The notes below the pieces were generated by a model. The model was given only the letters and a program-made list of their open reading frames with translations. It searched no databases and was not told where the DNA came from. Below, one piece after another: positions 5,291 through 52,354 of a stretch of 53,364 nucleotides of DNA. Source of the stretch: Acidobacteria bacterium RIFCSPLOWO2_02_FULL_61_28 (GTDB taxonomy: Bacteria > Acidobacteriota > Terriglobia > 2-12-FULL-54-10); NCBI GenBank assembly GCA_001767035.1, contig MEKR01000188.1, positions 1 to 53,364 of the forward strand, read 5' to 3'. Within the stretch, counting starts at the first letter, position 1, and every line of letters begins with the position of its first letter. The position numbers and the translations under genes are program-made.

Positions 5291-5903
5291 AGCCTCGCTT
5301 CCTCCGCACTGCGACAGAGGGTCCTCGCACTCCAAATACCAATGGGGGAGATCACGATAAGTAACTAATATTAAATAGGTTACAAATGCATATTCCGCCG
5401 AAGAGCCAAACCGTCCGAAGGCGGGTCGGGCTTCCAGGAGAAACGGCAGTATCCTGTTAAGTATAAGTTTATCAATCAGATAGTTGGCCATCAGAGGAGT
5501 AGATCGGGGCCATTCGGTCTCCTTCTCGACTGTTCAGTTTTTGACATGCGGGGCAAACTCCCGGCGGGCAGGAGCCTCTTCCATCGCCTGGCCGGAAAGA
5601 ACCGAAGAGGGTGGTTTGTGGCCTAAACTACTAGGACTTCACCCCGATTTCCTCTTTTTATCTTCAAGAAGTCCCATAAGTATTAGTCCCAATATAGATT
5701 CTCTTTGGCGAAAGATTTTTTCGCTCCTGCCGCTTTGGGCAGGAGTATAATTGCCTCCGCTGTTCTCAGTTCCAGCGCGAACACGGCGAACTCATGCTCC
5801 AGCTCAACAGCAAGAAATAAGAAACTTTCTCGGTCTCCTGGGCGGGAAGGAATCCGAGCCGCGACCGTGAGGGAGCGGACAATCCGGCCGCCAACGAGGA
5901 ACC
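5291..5903. other. Intergenic region between divergent genes, with AT-rich promoter zone
   Basis: No convincing gene. The part next to the HD-GYP regulator (5350-5400) is markedly AT-rich for this genome and holds its probable promoter. A short frame at 5484-5750 has no coding features. Near the right end, 5851-5878 carries a copy of the dispersed repeat that begins AATCCGAGCCGCGACC and continues GTGAGGGAGCGG. The same family occurs inside the gene that follows and at 24139-24235. Confidence 0.5.
5357..5385 (-). promoter_or_regulatory. Possible sigma70-type promoter for the HD-GYP regulator gene
   Basis: On the minus strand TTGTAA (5385-5380) is followed after 16-17 bp by TACTTA/ACTTAT, inside an AT-rich patch about 70 bp upstream of the ATG at 5290. 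The match to consensus is only moderate. Confidence 0.3.
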
Positions 5904-8900
5904 ATGAGGAAAACGCCTGTCGCTGTTTGCTTCTCGTTGCTCGTTGTCGTAGCGACCATCTTCACGCAAGTCCCCAAAGGACAGGAGTCAGAAGTCAGGA
6001 GTCAGAAGTCAGAATCAGAGCCGCGACCCGTTCGGCAAGCTCAGGGCAGGCCGCAAGGGAGCGGTGGTTCTGAATCCGCGACCGTGAGCGAGCGGCCGGA
6101 AGTCGGCAAGCAGCTCGTTTTGGAAACCTACGGGCGATTGCCGCTGAGCTTTGAAGCGAACCACGGCCAGACCGACGGTAGCGTGAAGTTTCTCTCGCGC
6201 GGCAACGGCTACACGCTGTTCCTGACCGCGAACGAAGCAGTGCTAACGCTTCGCAGGAGTCAGGAGTCAGAAGTCAGGAGTCAGAATCAGAGCCCCGACC
6301 GCGAGGGAGGGGGCATTCATCCGAGCCGCACCAATCCGAGCAGTGCGCGCCTGCCCCGAGCGGAGTCGAGGGGTCAGCGAGTGGGCTATCCCCAGGTTAC
6401 GCAGATTCCCCCGATTGTCATCCCGAGGAGCGTTAGCGACGAGGGACCTGTACGTTCTTCACCATCTGTGCCATCTGCGAAATCTGCGGACCTGTACCGG
6501 CTTGCTGTGGATGAAACGGCGGTGCTGCGCATGAAGCTGGTCGGCGCGAATCCAAACCCGGCGGTAACGGGCCTCGCCGAACTGTCCGGCAAGAGCAACT
6601 ACTTCATTGGGAACGACCCCTCGAAGTGGCGCACCAACGTCCCCACTTACGCAAAGGTGAAGTATGAGGATGTCTACCCCGGCATTGACCTGGTCTATTA
6701 CGGCGCACCAGCCCCGGCTGGCCGGGGCCAGCGCCAACTCGAATACGACTTCGTGGTTGCTCCCGGCGCGGACCCACGCGCTATCACGCTCGACTTTGCG
6801 GGCGCGCAGCGAATGGAAATTGATCCGCAGGGCGAGTTGGCGCTCCAGACAAGCGCGGGTGAAGTCCGCTTGCACAAGCCTGTCGTGTATCAGGAGGTCG
6901 GCGGCATTAGGCAGATGGTGGACGGCCATTATGTGCGGAGGGGCAAAGAGGTCGTGGGCTTTGCGGTCGCCTCCTACGATCCGCGCCATCCTCTGATCAT
7001 TGACCCCGTGTTGGTTTACTCCACCTACTTGGGCGGGAGCGGCAACGACAGGGGCTTTGGCATTGCGGTGGATACTTCGGGAAACGCCTATGTGACGGGC
7101 GATACCCAATCGGCCACTTTCCCCGGAACCAGTGCCAGTTCCTTCCAGGCTGCTATCGACGGCGGCCTAGATGCCTTTATAACGAAGCTGAATGCGGCGG
7201 GCAGTTCCCTGGTCTATTCCACCTACCTGGGCGGGAGCGGCTCTACCAGTGGCAACGGCATCGCGGTGGATTCTTTGGGCAACGCCTATGTGACGGGCTG
7301 GACCGAGTCGGGCAACTTCCCCGGAACCAGTTCCAGTCCCATCCAGTCTGCTTTCGCTGGAGTCCAAGACGCCTTTGTGACAAAGCTGAATGCCGCTGGT
7401 AGCGCTTTGGTCTACTCCACCTACCTGGGCGGGAGCAGCGGAGAGAACTACCACCCACAAGCGGGCATCGCCGTGGACCCCTCGGGCAACGCCTATGTGA
7501 CGGGCACTACCTTTTCGAGGGACTTTCCCCTGGTCAATGCTTTCCAGCCCGCTTACGGCGGCAGCTGGGACGCCTTTGTGGCAAAGCTGAATCCTGCGGG
7601 CTCCGCTCTGGTTTACTCCACCTACCTGGGCGGGAGCGGCACCGACAAGGGCTTTGGCATTGCGGTGGATTCTTCGGGCAACGCCTATGTGACGGGCGGG
7701 ACCGGTTCGACCAACTTTCCCACGGCCAATGCCTTGCAGGCCGCTTTTGCAGGCGGCGCCCCGGATGCTTTTTCGGGCGCTGATGCCTTTGTGACGAAGC
7801 TGAATGCCGCCGGCAGCGCTCTGGTCTATTCCACCTACCTGGGTGGGAGCAGCGTCGACCAGGGCAACGGCATTGCGGTGGACTCCACCGGCAACGCCTA
7901 TGTGACGGGCGACACCCTTTCGGGCAATTTCCCGACGGCCAATGCCTTTCAGTCCACTCTTCGCGGCCACTATAACGCCTTTGTGACGAAGCTGAACGCG
8001 GCCGGCACCGCTCTGGTTTATTCTACCTACCTGGGCGGGGGCGCCGAAGGTGGCCACGGCATCGCCGTGGACTCCGCCGGCAACGCCTACGTGACGGGGA
8101 CCACGTTCGGTTCCACCGATTTTCCCACCGCGAACGCTTTCCAGGCAGCGCTTGGCGGCGCCGACGACGCCTTTGCGGCGAAGCTCGATACCAACGCTAC
8201 CGGCGTTGCCTCCCTGGTCTACTCCACCTACCTGGGCGGGAACAGCTTTGAAGAGAGATCTAGCATTGCGGTGGACTCCTCCGGCAACGCCTATGTGACG
8301 GGCTATACCACTTCGGCCAATTTCCCCACAGCGAATGCTTTCCAGGCAGCGTTTGGCGGTAGCACCGACGCTTTTGTATCAAAAATATTTTGTCAGCCCC
8401 CCAACAGCCCGCCCGTTATCACCAGTGTGAGCGGACCGACCAGCCCGATTGCGCTAGGCAACGCTGCGACCGTATCCGCAAACTTCACTGACGCTGACGC
8501 CCAGGACACGCATACCTGTACCTTTGCCTGGGACGATAGCAGCTCGAGCCCAGGCGCTGTTACAGAGCCGACGACTAGCATCCCCGGCCAGTGCATGGCA
8601 TCGCATACCTACGCCACCGCCGGTGTTTACGCTGTTGCAATCACGGTCACCGACAACAGCGGGGCCAGCGCCTCCACCACGTTCGAGTCCGTGGTGATCT
8701 TTGCCGCGAACGCCGGCTTCATTACCGGGGGCGGCTGGATTAACTCACCCGCGAGTGCTTATGCGGCCAACCGGAGCTTGAGTGGGAAAGCGAATTTCGG
8801 CTTTGTCTCGAAATACCAGAAGGGCGCGAACACGCCCACGGGTCAAACCGAATTCCAGTTCCCAGCCGCTAATTTCAACTTCCACAGCAGTGTTTGCGAA

Positions 8901-9155
8901 TGGCTGGTCGTGGCCGGGGCAATGGCGCAGTACAAAGGAAGCGGCACCGTCAACGGCGCGGGCAACTACGGCTTCCTGCTGACGGCGACTGATCGTCAAT
9001 TGCCCGTTGGCGGAGGGGTAGATAAGTTTCGGATCAAGATTTGGAACAAGGCGACCAACGCGGTGATTTACGACAACGTCGGAGGCTCAGACGACATAGA
9101 CTCGGCCAATCCGCAGGCGATCAGCGGCGGGAGCATCGTCATCCACAATCAGTAG
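5904..9155 (+). CDS. Secreted SBBP beta-propeller protein with PKD and C-terminal domain
   Basis: A 1083-residue exoprotein. A signal peptide (MRKTPVAVCFSLLVVVATIF) follows a GAGGAA ribosome site. A DUF7948-type domain (FEANHGQTDGSVKFLSRGNG to LEYDFVVAPGADP) spans roughly residues 75-345. Seven SBBP repeats follow, each with YSTYLGG, GIAVD and GNAYVTG (bases 7014-8390), enough for a seven-bladed propeller. Then come a PKD-like domain (about residues 833-935) and a C-terminal module starting GGGWI, similar to the post-COAP-1 domain. Residues 27-70 and about 115-195 are not family sequence: they are translated repetitive DNA inserted in frame (5983-6095 and 6255-6490). The function is probably extracellular adhesion or scaffolding; no catalytic motif was seen. 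The gene faces the cytochrome gene at 9400 and ends at a block of seven-base repeats. Confidence 0.9.
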   Translation: MRKTPVAVCFSLLVVVATIFTQVPKGQESEVRSQKSESEPRPVRQAQGRPQGSGGSESATVSERPEVGKQLVLETYGRLPLSFEANHGQTDGSVKFLSRGNGYTLFLTANEAVLTLRRSQESEVRSQNQSPDREGGGIHPSRTNPSSARLPRAESRGQRVGYPQVTQIPPIVIPRSVSDEGPVRSSPSVPSAKSADLYRLAVDETAVLRMKLVGANPNPAVTGLAELSGKSNYFIGNDPSKWRTNVPTYAKVKYEDVYPGIDLVYYGAPAPAGRGQRQLEYDFVVAPGADPRAITLDFAGAQRMEIDPQGELALQTSAGEVRLHKPVVYQEVGGIRQMVDGHYVRRGKEVVGFAVASYDPRHPLIIDPVLVYSTYLGGSGNDRGFGIAVDTSGNAYVTGDTQSATFPGTSASSFQAAIDGGLDAFITKLNAAGSSLVYSTYLGGSGSTSGNGIAVDSLGNAYVTGWTESGNFPGTSSSPIQSAFAGVQDAFVTKLNAAGSALVYSTYLGGSSGENYHPQAGIAVDPSGNAYVTGTTFSRDFPLVNAFQPAYGGSWDAFVAKLNPAGSALVYSTYLGGSGTDKGFGIAVDSSGNAYVTGGTGSTNFPTANALQAAFAGGAPDAFSGADAFVTKLNAAGSALVYSTYLGGSSVDQGNGIAVDSTGNAYVTGDTLSGNFPTANAFQSTLRGHYNAFVTKLNAAGTALVYSTYLGGGAEGGHGIAVDSAGNAYVTGTTFGSTDFPTANAFQAALGGADDAFAAKLDTNATGVASLVYSTYLGGNSFEERSSIAVDSSGNAYVTGYTTSANFPTANAFQAAFGGSTDAFVSKIFCQPPNSPPVITSVSGPTSPIALGNAATVSANFTDADAQDTHTCTFAWDDSSSSPGAVTEPTTSIPGQCMASHTYATAGVYAVAITVTDNSGASASTTFESVVIFAANAGFITGGGWINSPASAYAANRSLSGKANFGFVSKYQKGANTPTGQTEFQFPAANFNFHSSVCEWLVVAGAMAQYKGSGTVNGAGNYGFLLTATDRQLPVGGGVDKFRIKIWNKATNAVIYDNVGGSDDIDSANPQAISGGSIVIHNQ
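5983..6095 (+). repeat. Seven-base tandem repeat plus composite dispersed repeat, inside the SBBP gene
   Basis: 5983-6010 is AGGAGTC and AGAAGTC alternating (four units), with a partial fifth. It is followed at 6018-6095 by a composite repeat containing GGGCAGGCCGCAAGGGAGCG and CGACCGTGAGCGAGCGG. A closely similar block lies at 24157-24235 inside the unrelated M28-like gene. All of it is translated in frame just after the signal peptide. Confidence 0.85.
6255..6490 (+). repeat. Mosaic of dispersed repeats inside the SBBP gene
   Basis: In order: seven-base units AGGAGTC/AGAAGTC (6255-6288); a degenerate copy of the GAGCCGCGACCG repeat (from 6288); CCTGCCCCGAGCGGAGTCGA plus GGGG (6350-6373); a block at 6417-6448 beginning GTCATCCCGAGGAGCG, repeated in inverse at 42307-42337; and ATCTGTGCCATCTGCGAAA-type sequence (6467-6490). 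The whole stretch stays open and splits the DUF7948-like domain. Confidence 0.75.
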
Positions 9156-13218: not shown

Positions 13219-13231
13219 TTTAGGTCAACTG

Positions 13232-13268
13232 GTAGCCACGGCGAGCGCTTTTCTCGCCGTGGGCTTTT
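13232..13268 (+). repeat. REP element (GTAG plus hairpin), also a terminator for the transporter gene
   Basis: GTAG (13232-13235) is followed by a perfect 10-bp stem, CCACGGCGAG (13236-13245) with CTCGCCGTGG (13253-13262), a 7-nt loop, then GCTTTTT. The GTAG tetranucleotide at the hairpin foot is the hallmark of REP elements used by RAYT transposases. Stem plus T-run also fits an intrinsic terminator. A near-identical 47-bp copy lies at 14401-14448. Confidence 0.85.
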
Positions 13269-13446
13269 TCTCAATACATGCTTTGATTGTCCGGCCCCTG
13301 CGGGGCCGTGATCCCGTTGATGATTCCGTTTCCTGCGTTCATTTCCTTCGGATTCTTTTCATTGAACCGTACCGGGACGATGCGTGTCTTGCGTTACAAT
13401 ATTACGATTCTTGACGAACGCTCCAAATTAGGAGGCTGGCAAACCC

Positions 13447-14337: not shown

Positions 14338-14403
14338 GGCCATCAGGATGACAAGCCCCAGTGCCACAACGCCGACTTGGCGGTTCTGGCCCATACCTAG
14401 CTG

Positions 14404-14490
14404 GTAGCCACGGCGAGCGCTTTCCTCGCCGTGGGCTTTTTCTCAATACAACCCCACGGCCAATTGATACTGCCAATTGACCGTGGCTAC
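14404..14490. repeat. Inverted pair of REP elements (BIME) upstream of the RAYT gene
   Basis: A forward REP (GTAG 14404-14407; stem 14408-14417 with 14425-14434; GCTTTTT) is followed by a reverse REP. The reverse copy has outer stem CCACGG (14454-14459) with CCGTGG (14481-14486), inner stem CAATTG (14461-14466) with CAATTG (14474-14479), and CTAC (14487-14490), the complement of GTAG. The CTAC ends about 7 bp before the RAYT start codon. Confidence 0.85.
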
Positions 14491-14496
14491 CATGCT

Positions 14497-14949
14497 ATGA
14501 TTTGCAGCATGTCGGGCGTGCATCGGCTTCGGCTGAGCGACCGAATTTTCTTCGTCACCGTGAATCTCCGCCGGCCGCTTCCGCGATTCACGGAAGCAGA
14601 GTTCCCACTGATCCTGGCGACTCTTGAGGAATCCCGCCGTCGGCTGGGATTTGCGCTTTGCGGATATGTGCTGATGCCAGACCACTGGCACGCGCTCTTG
14701 GGGCCTCGCGCCCCCCTCACGATCTCCCGCTTGGTCCAAGACGTGAAATATGTCTCCGCGCGCCGCTTGAACCGCCAGCGCCAGAGCCACGACCCCCTTT
14801 GGCAACACCAGTTCTGGGATCGTTTTGTGAGGCATAACAGAGAGTTCGGACAGCGACTCCATTACATGCACTTCAACCCGGTGCGAAAAGGCTTGGTGGC
14901 GAAGCCGGAGGACTGGCGGTGGTCCAGTTGCCGGAATTTCAGCTTGTAA
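14497..14949 (+). CDS. REP-associated tyrosine transposase (RAYT), Y1_Tnp/IS200-like
   Basis: A single-domain HUH-type transposase of about 150 residues, related to IS200/IS605 TnpA but domesticated to mobilise REP elements. Visible motifs are FFVTVNL near the N-terminus, the HUH-type metal motif in YVLMPDHWHALL, a helix with VSARRLNRQ, QFWDRFVRHNREFGQRLHYM (the presumed catalytic Tyr is in this helix) and HFNPVRKGLVAKPEDWRWSS, a strong RAYT signature. Possible starts are ATG 14497 or ATG 14509; a longer frame from GTG 14431 would begin inside the REP hairpin and is unlikely. No terminal IS structure is present. REP hairpins with GTAG feet flank it on both sides, as is typical for RAYT genes and their substrates. 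Confidence 0.93.
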   Translation: MICSMSGVHRLRLSDRIFFVTVNLRRPLPRFTEAEFPLILATLEESRRRLGFALCGYVLMPDHWHALLGPRAPLTISRLVQDVKYVSARRLNRQRQSHDPLWQHQFWDRFVRHNREFGQRLHYMHFNPVRKGLVAKPEDWRWSSCRNFSL

Positions 14950-16954: not shown

Positions 16955-17158
16955 ATTTTTCTCTAGCCCAGGCGTTCACGCCTGGGTCGAAGGGAGCCCC
17001 CGAATTTCTTAGCCCCCTTCAGGGGGCTTGCCAATCCTTGCGGCTTCAGCTCTCGTAAGGTCGAGGGGCTTAAGCCGTTATCGAGAAGCCCGCTGAAGCG
17101 GGCTTTGTACGTCTTCGCAACATTCGACCCCGCCCTGAAGGGCGGGCTAGAGAAAAAT
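16955..17158. repeat. MITE-like palindromic element with 15-bp terminal inverted repeats
   Basis: The ends are perfect inverted repeats, ATTTTTCTCTAGCCC (16955-16969) and GGGCTAGAGAAAAAT (17144-17158). Inside lie several hairpins: CCCAGGCG/CGCCTGGG (16967-16986), GCCCCCTTCAGGGGGC (17012-17027), AGCCCGCTGAAGCGGGCT (17087-17104) and CCGCCCTGAAGGGCGG (17130-17145). The first two recur in inverse order at 52190-52262. No coding capacity. Confidence 0.75.
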
Positions 17159-22759: not shown

Positions 22760-22821
22760 TCCCATTCCCGAATCCCCTGCCGCTTGCGCGATGAGCGCGC
22801 TACTGCTACACTCGCCTCACT

Positions 22822-24663
22822 TTGCCGGACCAGTCTGCTTCAATCCGGCTGCCGCTGCGCGACGATGCCGATGCGCGCGTCGCGGAATTGCTGCGCAACA
22901 TTGCCGAAGCCTGCCGCCGCCAATCGAGCGAAGACTACAATCAATCGAACAAGCGGTTAGCGGAAGAATTTCTGGCGCAGATTGAGCGCGATTTCCCCGG
23001 CCGCTGCATAGCGCGCCGCCAGCCGATCCCGACCTTTCACATTCGTACCACGGACTCGAACTACATCTTCACCGTGCCGGGGCGCTCGGAGAATGAGCTG
23101 GTTCTGGTGGCGCACTTCGACACCTGGCGCGGGCCGGGGGCCGACGACAACACCACCGGCGAGGAGGTCTTGAAGCAATACCTGCTCGAAGACCTGCGGC
23201 GGGCGGAGCCGCCTCCGCTGACGCATACTTACATTTTGGCAGGGTCGGAGGAATGCGGACTGATCGGGTTCGTATCGCAATGCCTGCTCGCCGCCGGTTT
23301 GGTGGCGGCGAATCTCTCCTACCAATCCGGCAGCGTGATCGAAGCGCTGATCGCGCTGATTGCCATTCCGCTCGCCAAGTACCGCTTTGGCGTGGCCGGC
23401 TCGCGCGTCTATGTCCAGAGCCTCAGCCCGGACGAGCTGGCGCGGACGCAGGCCGTCATTGCCGTGGACTCGGTCGGCGAAGGGCGCATGTATGTCCCCA
23501 GCACGAGCCTGGGCGCCGATTTTGTGCGCGCCTTCATTCCGTTCCCCGGCTACGACCGCTTGAATGACTTGCTCGAAGAAGCCGCCCATCTGCACGGCAT
23601 CAAGTACAACCGCTTTCTCTCGGGCGGCACCACGGACCACGTCTCGTGGCTCGAAGTCAACAACAGCCTCCTCGATTGGGTTCGGGAACACCTCGGAGGA
23701 AAGAAAAAATTAAAGGTCCCGGCGGCGGCGCTCATTACGATGTGTCCCGGCAAGGCCTCGCCGTTTGTCTTTGGCGGCAAGATTCACACGCCGGCCGATA
23801 CGGCCGACCGCGTCTACCCCGAGCCGCTGCGCCAGACGCTCCACGTCCTCGACTACTTCTTCCACATCTTCGAAGGAGGCGCGAAACCGAGCGAGCCTCG
23901 CACGCCGGAGGACTGCCACTACGCCCGCCTCTACGCCGCCGGGAGCGAGACCTATCTCGTGCTCAAAGACGCCGTCGAGCCGAATCGCCGCAACCTGAAC
24001 ATGATCTACCGCGTCGAGGCCGGGATCACCGAGGACGGGCCAAACCGCGTCGCCCGCGTCCGCATCGGAGCGTGTGTTAGGTGGGGCGTGGAGACTTCGA
24101 TGGACGAAGAGATCGCAAACTTCCTGGCGGGGAAAGAAAATCCGAGCCGCGATTCCGAGCCGCGACCCACGGCAAGCCGGGGCAGGCCGCAAGGGAGCGG
24201 TGGTTTGAATCCGAGCCGCGACCGTGAGCGAGCGGTCCTGACTGCCTGCCGGCGCATTCCACTTACAGAAATTCACGTTGAAAACGGCCCCACGTTCTGG
24301 CGGCGGTTTGGGTTGATTCGGAGCCTGCGGGCGGCGGCGCATTCGGTTGTCGGCCACGTCGCGGAGTGGATGGGCCGCTACAGCTTCCTGATTTACTTTC
24401 TCGCCGCCTACCTGGTTGCGGAAGCGTTCAACATGGCGATGGACGCCGCGTTCTGGGCTTCGCCAGAGTTCGCCGTTCAGTTCTTCCGCTTCTATTGGGC
24501 GACCATCCCGTTCACGGTGGCCCTGGAATTCGGGCTGATTACATACCTCTTTGTGGTGGCCATTCCGACGGTGATTGACAACAGCTATCGGCATCTCAAC
24601 CGGGCCGACAATCTGCTGAGCCTGAAGCGGGCAAGAAAGCAGGGAGCAGGGAACAGGGAATAG
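22822..24663 (+). CDS. M28-like peptidase with C-terminal membrane segments
   Basis: A 613-residue protein. Residues about 60-360 resemble M28 zinc aminopeptidases: VLVAHFDTWRGPGADDNTTG (first metal His and bridging Asp), AGSEECGLIG (catalytic and metal Glu), VIAVDSVGEGRM (metal Asp) and TTDHVSW with IHTPADTADRVYPE (last metal His). A hydrophobic insert (about residues 165-195) and two or three C-terminal helices (515-590) suggest membrane attachment. The segment of about residues 440-480 is not protein-family sequence; it is an in-frame dispersed repeat (24139-24235). The start is uncertain: TTG 22822 without a clear ribosome site. The last codons and the stop fall inside a seven-base repeat, giving the tail QGAGNRE. 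Confidence 0.82.
   Translation: MPDQSASIRLPLRDDADARVAELLRNIAEACRRQSSEDYNQSNKRLAEEFLAQIERDFPGRCIARRQPIPTFHIRTTDSNYIFTVPGRSENELVLVAHFDTWRGPGADDNTTGEEVLKQYLLEDLRRAEPPPLTHTYILAGSEECGLIGFVSQCLLAAGLVAANLSYQSGSVIEALIALIAIPLAKYRFGVAGSRVYVQSLSPDELARTQAVIAVDSVGEGRMYVPSTSLGADFVRAFIPFPGYDRLNDLLEEAAHLHGIKYNRFLSGGTTDHVSWLEVNNSLLDWVREHLGGKKKLKVPAAALITMCPGKASPFVFGGKIHTPADTADRVYPEPLRQTLHVLDYFFHIFEGGAKPSEPRTPEDCHYARLYAAGSETYLVLKDAVEPNRRNLNMIYRVEAGITEDGPNRVARVRIGACVRWGVETSMDEEIANFLAGKENPSRDSEPRPTASRGRPQGSGGLNPSRDRERAVLTACRRIPLTEIHVENGPTFWRRFGLIRSLRAAAHSVVGHVAEWMGRYSFLIYFLAAYLVAEAFNMAMDAAFWASPEFAVQFFRFYWATIPFTVALEFGLITYLFVVAIPTVIDNSYRHLNRADNLLSLKRARKQGAGNRE
24139..24235 (+). repeat. Composite dispersed repeat inside the M28-like gene
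   Basis: Two overlapping copies of AATCCGAGCCGCGA-type sequence (24139, 24152) lead into GGGCAGGCCGCAAGGGAGCG. A full copy then begins AATCCGAGCCGCGACCGTGA and ends GCGAGCGG (24208-24235). 24157-24235 aligns with 6018-6095 in the SBBP gene, with two short length differences. Confidence 0.85.
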
Positions 24664-34713: not shown

Positions 34714-35268
34714 ATGCTCAAGCGATTCATAGAGTACCTGAAGTATGGTGCCGGACGCCCACCTGGAACTATGTGGGCGATGGAAAAGTGCTACTTTGTC
34801 TTGAGACACCACTATCCTAACCTATCCGAGGATGCGTACCTGCTTCTTACGCTACGATCGCGCTATCCCCTAAGAAGAGACGTTGGCGAGATTGCTTCCC
34901 GTTGTCAGAATCTGGATGATGCGATACTTGAAGCTGTGCGACTGGATTTCGGCGACTTTGTTGTGCAGATGTTTCGACCCGCCTTAGAAGCGTTTCCGTT
35001 CTGCTCTGCGTGTCAAGAATACCGCGCCCTAAGTTTGACCGACACGCTCTGTTATGGATGTCGGAATTTCGGTGATTTAATTCCCTGTAACAGATGTAGA
35101 CTTTATTGGCCGAAGAACCAGAAATTCTGCGGACAGTGTGGTGCGCCGTTAGCCGTAGAAAAATCCGTGACTCTAATTCCCTGTAACAGATGTAGACTTT
35201 ATTGGCCGAAAAACCAGAAATTCTGCGGACAGTGTGGTGCCGCTTTGGTCGCGGCGCAAGAGGAGTAA
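34714..35268 (+). CDS. Zinc-ribbon protein with recently duplicated C-terminal ribbon
   Basis: A 184-residue protein of unknown function. The N-terminal 100 residues are helical (MLKRFIEYLKYGAGRPPGTM). A first metal motif is FCSACQEYRAL with LCYGCRNFG. Two almost identical copies of a zinc ribbon follow, IPCNRCRLYWPKNQKFCGQC, separated by a short linker; each has CxxC and CxxC. The DNA of the two copies is identical over 67 bp except for one base (35078-35144 and 35174-35240). Low GC content sets it apart from flanking genes. Double ribbons of this kind are often protein- or nucleic-acid-binding tails; the role here is not known. Confidence 0.75.
   Translation: MLKRFIEYLKYGAGRPPGTMWAMEKCYFVLRHHYPNLSEDAYLLLTLRSRYPLRRDVGEIASRCQNLDDAILEAVRLDFGDFVVQMFRPALEAFPFCSACQEYRALSLTDTLCYGCRNFGDLIPCNRCRLYWPKNQKFCGQCGAPLAVEKSVTLIPCNRCRLYWPKNQKFCGQCGAALVAAQEE
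35078..35240 (+). repeat. Two direct 67-bp repeats (96-bp period) inside the zinc-ribbon gene
   Basis: Copy 1 is 35078-35144 and copy 2 is 35174-35240. They differ at one base (GAAGAACC versus GAAAAACC). The period of 96 bp keeps the frame. Confidence 0.95.
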
Positions 35269-42102: not shown

Positions 42103-42306
42103 GGCAGCCTAACCTGCGGCGGAACCCGAAAAAAACAGACTCCAGACAGAGGCTAATTGCAACCTGTTTGACTCCGAGTGAGGTTGAATCCACCGGCCGG
42201 CTGGGGGTATGATTTTGCTCGGCGGCTCAGGAAAAACCTGGAATTCATGACCTCCACGTTGGCCTCGCGGGGCGAGGAACCTGCGCGATCCTGGATTCAA
42301 AGTGCA

Positions 42307-42337
42307 GGTCCCTCGTCGCTACGCTCCTCGGGATGAC
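42307..42337 (-). repeat. Dispersed repeat copy, inverse of 6417-6448
   Basis: The complement begins GTCATCCCGAGGAGCG and ends GCGACGAGGGACC, matching 6417-6448 inside the SBBP gene except for one inserted T there. It lies in the 270-bp gene-free region 42103-42375, in which nothing else is seen. Confidence 0.75.
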
Positions 42338-42375
42338 AGCGGAGCGGCACGGATACAGGGCTTCCCAAAACCGCG

Positions 42376-52189: not shown

Positions 52190-52262
52190 TTGGCAAGCCC
52201 CCTGAAGGGGGCTAGAAAAATCCGTGGCTCTCGGAGACCCAGGCGTGAACGCCTGGGCTAGA
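52190..52262. repeat. CTAG-type palindromic repeat pair
   Basis: AAGCCCCCTGAAGGGGGCT (inside 52190-52215, then AG) and CCCAGGCGTGAACGCCTGGG with CTAGAG (52238-52262). They are the inverse of hairpins at 16961-17034, in inverse order, and CTAG sits beside each stem. Confidence 0.75.
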
Positions 52263-52354
52263 GAAAAAACCGGGGGGCGGTTGTCCTGCGCCGATTCCCC
52301 ATGAGGGTCGAGCCGGTGTCGCCGCCGAGGATTTCGCGGGGCGCGGCGGCCGGT

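Follow-up and report, generated by a model that had tools for sequence, protein, structure and literature searches.

The window (the whole 53,364-nt stretch of contig MEKR01000188.1 from Acidobacteria bacterium RIFCSPLOWO2_02_FULL_61_28 that was analysed) carries, on the forward strand at 5904..9155, an open reading frame for a 1083-aa protein in which a DUF7948 domain is joined by a PKD domain and seven stretches of SBBP type; a hydrophobic N-terminal stretch is taken by eye as its signal peptide. Curated profiles score well above their cut-offs (for the DUF7948 / SBBP family, 224.6 bits against 27 and 222.3 against 20.5). The DUF7948 match spans residues 83-369 on a profile of only 214 positions, so the domain holds some 70 extra residues. 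As the sequence-only reading of this DNA had claimed, two blocks of repeats are read in frame as part of the protein, both on the forward strand. Block 1 (5982..6095) lies between the signal peptide and the DUF7948 domain, and block 2 (6254..6490) fills a loop of the domain itself, at residues about 118-196 of the protein (P0001).

Both blocks are mosaics of short modules, for which we have coined the names E1, E2, B, B2, C and D. Block 1 opens with a tandem array of the heptamer CAGGAGT/CAGAAGT (5982..6012, +; counted as a tandem array, 5982-6019), all three of whose forward frames are open and all three reverse frames closed. It continues with a copy of the E1 element (GAATCCGAGCCGCGACCGTGAGGGAGCGG) interrupted by a 24-bp piece (6013..6064, +, as seen from genome matches and the listed E1-type copies) and ends with a second E1-type copy (6067..6095, +). 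The 24-bp piece (module B, 6029..6052, +) has a frame-neutral length, and all six copies of it in the own-genome DNA chosen by block matches sit at the same point of an E1-type element. Block 2 begins with a second heptamer array (6254..6290, +), so that the seven-base arrays noticed in the sequence-only reading are there in both blocks. It goes on through an E1 variant, GAGCCCCGACCGCGAGGGAGGGG (6284..6312, +), the GCCTGCCCCGAGCGGAGTCGAGGGG module (B2, 6349..6373, +; block 2 query positions 83-135 match contigs C59, C123 and C64, and 100-126 match C107), the GTCATCCCGAGGAGCGTTAGCGACGAGGGACC module (C, 6417..6456, +) and CCATCTGTGCCATCTGCGAAATCTGCGG (D, 6462..6489, +), which has a repeat-like look and is covered by no genome match. 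Module C has an inverted copy elsewhere in the window (42299..42338, -). Within it the CATCCCGAGGAGCGTTAGCGACGAGGGACC module at 6434-6456 is 91% complementary to 42299-42321, which bears out an inverse copy previously placed near 42307. A further E1 copy (5850..5878, +) lies upstream of the start codon of the gene. The claim that a composite of about 80 bp is shared with another gene also holds: it recurs, 85% identical, at 24151..24235 (+), in frame in an M28 peptidase reading frame (22795-24660).

Both heptamer arrays of the 5904-9155 gene have one orientation, the open one. Among block matches in the own genome (G000) there are also eight inverted pairs of arrays, 10-113 bp apart, that could form long hairpins (C88 15274/15399; C182 4292/4440 and 11582/11692; C174 1101/1185; C107 3853/3958; C29 34982/35058; C95 30614/30650; C152 16734/16786). 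When paired arrays were sought with a strict heptamer pattern, one inverted pair emerged among 19 arrays, where the BLAST lists give these eight. The window contains two other repeats: an inverted pair of 79 nt at 16956-17034 and 52190-52268 (89% complementary), and two 78-nt copies at 35078-35155 and 35174-35251 (92% identical, starts 96 nt apart) in or beside the reading frame 34714-35268.

The repeats are dispersed through the genome, which is available as a 3.86-Mb assembly of 199 contigs, 92% complete. At E<=10, block 1 (as a 124-nt query) gives 55 own-genome matches and block 2 (251 nt) gives 51, self included in both cases; the best non-self match of block 1 has an E-value of 3.9e-20. 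A control query of 251 nt from the DUF7948 core (6640-6890) returns 21 matches at E<=1, self included, the others being two paralogues below 1e-10 and 18 short matches at 0.0186 or worse. The block matches far exceed this control, and the blocks are therefore dispersed repeats beyond what chance would give. The claim that they consist of repeats stands for most of their length, which is matched elsewhere. It is not borne out for positions 6385-6398 and from 6461 onward, which have no other match in the own genome at E<=10, so that the repeat status of block 2 is demonstrated for part of it only. The exact E1 sequence occurs in 68 copies, or 103 with at most one mismatch, and the reversed pattern in none. 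Of 199 genomes sampled from the phylum, five contain exact E1: the own genome with its 68 copies and four others with 6, 5, 2 and 1. A 29-nt heptamer run is exact in at least 117 stretches of named genomes from several phyla (cyanobacteria, acidobacteria, Bacillota, Deltaproteobacteria, Verrucomicrobia, Nitrospirae, Phycisphaerae and others among the matches listed). None of the 117 named loci fetched through the heptamer contains E1, E2, B, B2, C or D, so a spread of these modules across phyla cannot be claimed.

Copies read in frame are found well beyond the SBBP gene. Dropping matches above E 0.01 (8 of 55 for block 1, 3 of 51 for block 2) and repeats of listed rows leaves 74 merged places. 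A home-made codon model trained on the own genome, whose frame call is correct for 1001 of 1199 windows, puts six of these inside an open gene and three between differing frames, with coding on one side at 37 and an unclear result at 28. For the 68 exact E1 copies with their flanks, the corresponding counts are 10 in an open frame coding on both sides, 12 with the same frame on both sides and a stop between (broken genes or neighbours) and 46 not inside a gene. One of the ten, in a gene with a metallo-hydrolase fold (C175), was set aside because its E1 precedes the likely start. The remaining nine genes encode a second DUF7948 protein (C102), the B12-dependent ribonucleotide reductase (nrd), a GlcD/GlpC-like oxidoreductase, a UbiD-family enzyme (matching a menaquinone decarboxylase model), Mpl, TsaB, an RluB-like pseudouridine synthase, an amidase and Fmt. 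Compared with solved structures, the E1 insert shows as a gap in the UbiD-family enzyme (query 203-242 against chain 224-231), in the RluB-like protein (query 199-258 against chain 167-182) and in Fmt (14 residues). Variant E1 copies lie in the M28 peptidase gene of the window, in a UDP-glucose dehydrogenase-family gene and, antisense, in an LptA/LptD-like gene; less surely, a RecX gene carries module B2.

A search of the genome for coding sequences with the repeat, which had been proposed along with the original claim, thus yields nine genes with exact E1 in addition to the composite in the M28 peptidase, and it supports the view that this repeat family tolerates in-frame insertion in coding DNA. 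The suggestion that the family favours coding DNA finds no support: 58 of the 68 exact E1 copies are not called inside an open gene, and a bacterial genome is mostly coding. All nine in-frame copies of exact E1 are in sense orientation (9/9). Of the E1 copies outside genes that could be scored, 40 of 55 run the same way as the gene upstream, which makes the orientation a general bias and no proof of selection on the peptide. Exact copies are read in two forward frames, and the E1 with the 24-bp piece in the third; reading in more than one forward frame suggests that the DNA, not the peptide, is the unit.

Long inserts in the DUF7948 domain fall chiefly in the loop that holds block 2. Between conserved flanks this loop measures 81 aa here, against a median of 18 in the 114 measurable among 119 homologues, the longest of which reaches 53 residues save for one outlier of 982. 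(The homologues were ranked by a search with residues 200-372 only, that is, without the words of the loop.) When inserts are mapped in 114 regions from 120 proteins, the window's own included, 90 have some insert, and 40 of the 45 inserts of at least 8 residues fall at positions 52-64 of a 228-position profile. In an AlphaFold2 model (44-sequence alignment, mean pLDDT 68) strands 42-48 and 136-143 of the modelled fragment flank block 2, whose pLDDT is mostly below 50; the insert is thus predicted to be a disordered excursion from a beta-hairpin. Searches of the PDB with DUF7948 gave no match by sequence and none by fold at E<=0.001.

The phenomenon is genuine, and wider than the first description had it. 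Each of the three DUF7948 genes detected in the genome carries such DNA, in the same loop and with differing modules. The other two loops (C164, EPRPIRQAQGKPQGSGGLNPSRARKQAVNPSSAGFQPA..; C102, QKSEVRIRAATVRERAG..) hold E1-type and heptamer DNA that differs in arrangement and reading frame. The C164 loop DNA is 92% identical to block 1 of the window's gene over 63 nt, though the two lie at different protein sites, and the DUF7948 core DNA of the same two genes is 75% alike. Two of the 72 non-self places lie within the C164 and C102 loops (270 nt of loop in all; Poisson P 1.3e-5, calculated post hoc).

Four loops from other genomes were chosen by eye, three for a repeat-like look and one, in G009, for the opposite. 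The G031 loop, with a different heptamer-like array, has 46 matches in its own genome besides self at E<=0.001 (58 at E<=1), the E1-like G002 loop has 16 (50) and the G004 loop 12 (39). For the G009 loop DNA (153 nt) there is no further match in its own genome at E<=0.001, and there are two at 0.84; it is not repeated, so long loops also come about in another way. Hence the same DUF7948 loop holds repeats in four of the genomes examined, and tolerance of the loop is the likely cause. Signature repeat peptides occur in 15 of 113 loops and nowhere else in the same 113 proteins; the dictionary of these peptides was compiled after the loops had been viewed, and five of the 15 are owed to module D, for which no second copy was found in the own genome; without D the count is 10 of 113. 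One DUF7948 match in another genome (G008:C13:24278-24874) has a single in-frame TAG.

Close homologues outline the inserts in the protein. P0007 and P0009 preserve the hydrophobic N-terminus and match the core closely (flank A at 95% and 90% identity, flank B at 89% and 77%, respectively). P0007 keeps 29 block 1 residues (QESEVRSQ..PQGSGG) unchanged, so block 1 is inherited in this small group and not recent. At the same site P0009 has 27 residues against 40, lacks those 29 and ends in a similar TVSEQP. The DUF7948 loops of both are shorter than the window's and of other make-up. At a further site, after VVAPGADPRAIRLAF, an E-like peptide is present in P0009 and P0028, and a differently composed insert in P0007. 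Alignment with homologues, a check the sequence-only reading had recommended, therefore shows the corresponding points to be either much shorter or occupied by different modules, with empty sites at the protein level; as judged from these alignments, modules vary among close relatives of the 1083-aa protein.

The mpl gene (L307:286-1782 in contig C156) was chosen for a wider comparison since its insert resembles a single E1. Between two anchors, 99 of 120 listed Mpl proteins have 31-33 residues and the query 45; 21, the query's entry included, have 37 or more. Among the 25 next-ranked proteins, 17 (74-82% identical) carry varied peptides at exactly the query's insert point, many with E-like NPSRAR, SRDREGA or SRAESRG motifs. 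The insertion site is filled in close relatives (P0211-P0229) and empty in most other homologues, and some of the proteins from this search are named Acidobacteria or Terriglobia. In terms of aligned proteins, mpl is the clearest empty-to-filled comparison, and it suggests that a site, once filled, remains so and goes on changing. All the empty sites are protein-level ones, with no insertion event seen in DNA between close strains.

It would appear, with a probability of about 0.8, that the blocks are dispersed repeats inserted in frame and kept because the linker after the signal peptide and the predicted disordered loop tolerate added residues. On this explanation repeat copies would land in many places, selection would remove those that break genes, and the survivors in coding DNA would be copies that are stop-free in the frame of the gene and lie in surface loops or linkers. 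A loop once filled may then change by heptamer slippage, by nesting (as with the 24-bp piece in E1) and by module exchange.

One candidate for moving the repeats is RAYT. There are nine matches to PF01797 (Y1/RAYT-type) in the own genome, one of them in the window at 14617-14823, and the C164 loop contains a GTAG-type palindrome; the blocks could thus be REPs moved by the cell's own Y1 transposases. This is unlikely. Several of the nine loci have GTAG palindromes or inverted repeats of other kinds at their borders. Matches to E1, B and C at the nine loci are absent or more than 1 kb off, with the one exception of a 14-nt partial match to module C, some 190 bp away from a Y1 gene, and there is no heptamer match. 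By inspection of 29 E1-type copies with their flanks, no GTAG or CGTC tag stands at a constant place. For E1 neither a target-site duplication nor a transposase was found, empty sites having been seen at the protein level alone. An E2 arm lies within 150 bp downstream of 15 of the 58 E1 copies outside genes and of none of the 10 inside. The Y1 match in the window has two GTAG-type palindromes of its own upstream (13229-13278 and 14401-14450, 98% identical), the nearer about 170 bp off.

The use of the same loop by several genomes with different repeats, and the filling of all three of the cell's own paralogues, could also mean that the loop is a slot for selected diversity, where repeats provide an exposed part of a secreted protein with new peptide and the resulting variants are favoured. 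We regard this as quite improbable, because the same repeats lie in cytosolic-type enzymes, because E1 in different frames makes the peptide sequence seem irrelevant, and because tolerance accounts for the pattern without selection. There is little to commend phase variation, in which gain or loss of one 7-bp unit would shift the frame and turn the secreted protein off: two arrays of 4-6 units do lie near the 5' end of the gene, and 7 is not a multiple of 3, but the units are imperfect, and elsewhere E1 occurs in genes that lack arrays.

An old functional linker peptide that merely resembles repeats is barely credible and was rejected on account of the dispersed genomic copies. Conservation of the inserted residues in close homologues had been named beforehand as the mark of such a linker, and it is seen for block 1 in P0007 but not in P0009, which lacks the 29 residues; dozens of copies lie outside the gene, and the modules of the paralogues differ. 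An artefact, either a chimeric contig or a translation start downstream of block 1, is scarcely worth entertaining: a 1023-aa shorter version (P0002) exists in the protein collection and the assembly is in 199 contigs, but P0007 and P0009 retain the hydrophobic N-terminus that precedes block 1, other assemblies have the same kind of loop, and block 2 is independent of the start.

For selfish repeats in frame within conserved genes, Rickettsia is the best-known host, and REPs add a few scattered cases. The Rickettsia palindromic elements (RPEs) are short repeats inserted in frame in conserved genes; a review counts 19 interrupted reading frames and describes as active a guanylate kinase with an RPE insert (PMC2229807). 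RPE proteins are also mentioned in PMC2635572. The likeness in idea that had been drawn to these elements is supported, as both are dispersed short repeats in frame within conserved protein genes. The host is a different one, and the sequences differ as far as seen, the two being set apart by description only, and no membership of the RPE families is claimed. Here, moreover, heptamer arrays and other modules occupy the same sites as an arm of 23-30 nt, and the loop of one family is reused. REPs inside genes form composites, with several inserts per gene, and have been suggested to lie in flexible linkers or loops (PMC3733652). The present repeats are likewise small, intragenic and composite; unlike intragenic GTAG/CGTC REPs, E1 has by inspection no GTAG or CGTC tag, and no RAYT among the nine Y1 loci is closely flanked by it. 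Fusions of MITEs with genes are covered in the same review, where the stop-free version, as of the 107-bp Correia repeat, is the one found within genes (PMC2229807). Such MITEs with open frames resemble E1 in that a stop-free version is used inside genes, and differ from it in that no inverted-repeat partner is seen on intragenic E1 (an E2 arm within 150 bp downstream in 0/10, against 15 of 58 for the other copies). The heptanucleotide repeats of cyanobacteria and Xanthomonas, which we take to be those named STRR, share the tandem array of a 7-nt unit; the unit here is its own, though its 29-nt run is exact in cyanobacteria and other phyla. Those tandem 7-mers are described as mostly intergenic (PMC4692102). 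In a partial literature search we found no report of in-frame repeats in acidobacterial genes or of an insertion slot in DUF7948. In-frame dispersed repeats are therefore a known kind, from RPEs and intragenic REPs; the element family is new, and so is the use of one loop by several repeat families across genomes.

A bolder proposal, possible but doubtful, is that the DUF7948 hairpin loop is a shared slot for whatever repeats are active in the host, so that a secreted surface protein is continually re-edited by parasitic DNA, and that E1 represents a new class of in-frame element that spreads, with no RAYT, into fmt, tsaB, mpl and other core genes. What we have is a non-Rickettsia genome of 3.9 Mb with in-frame repeats in fmt, tsaB, mpl and other genes and several families in one loop. 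If the tolerance reading is true, the repeats would amount to a natural insertion scan of the protein loops that accept new sequence, and would provide a path for loop lengthening. They would also be a warning for annotation, as such peptides are not signatures of the families in which they occur. The mpl and DUF7948 series, going from empty to filled at one point, would make the steps of this process testable.
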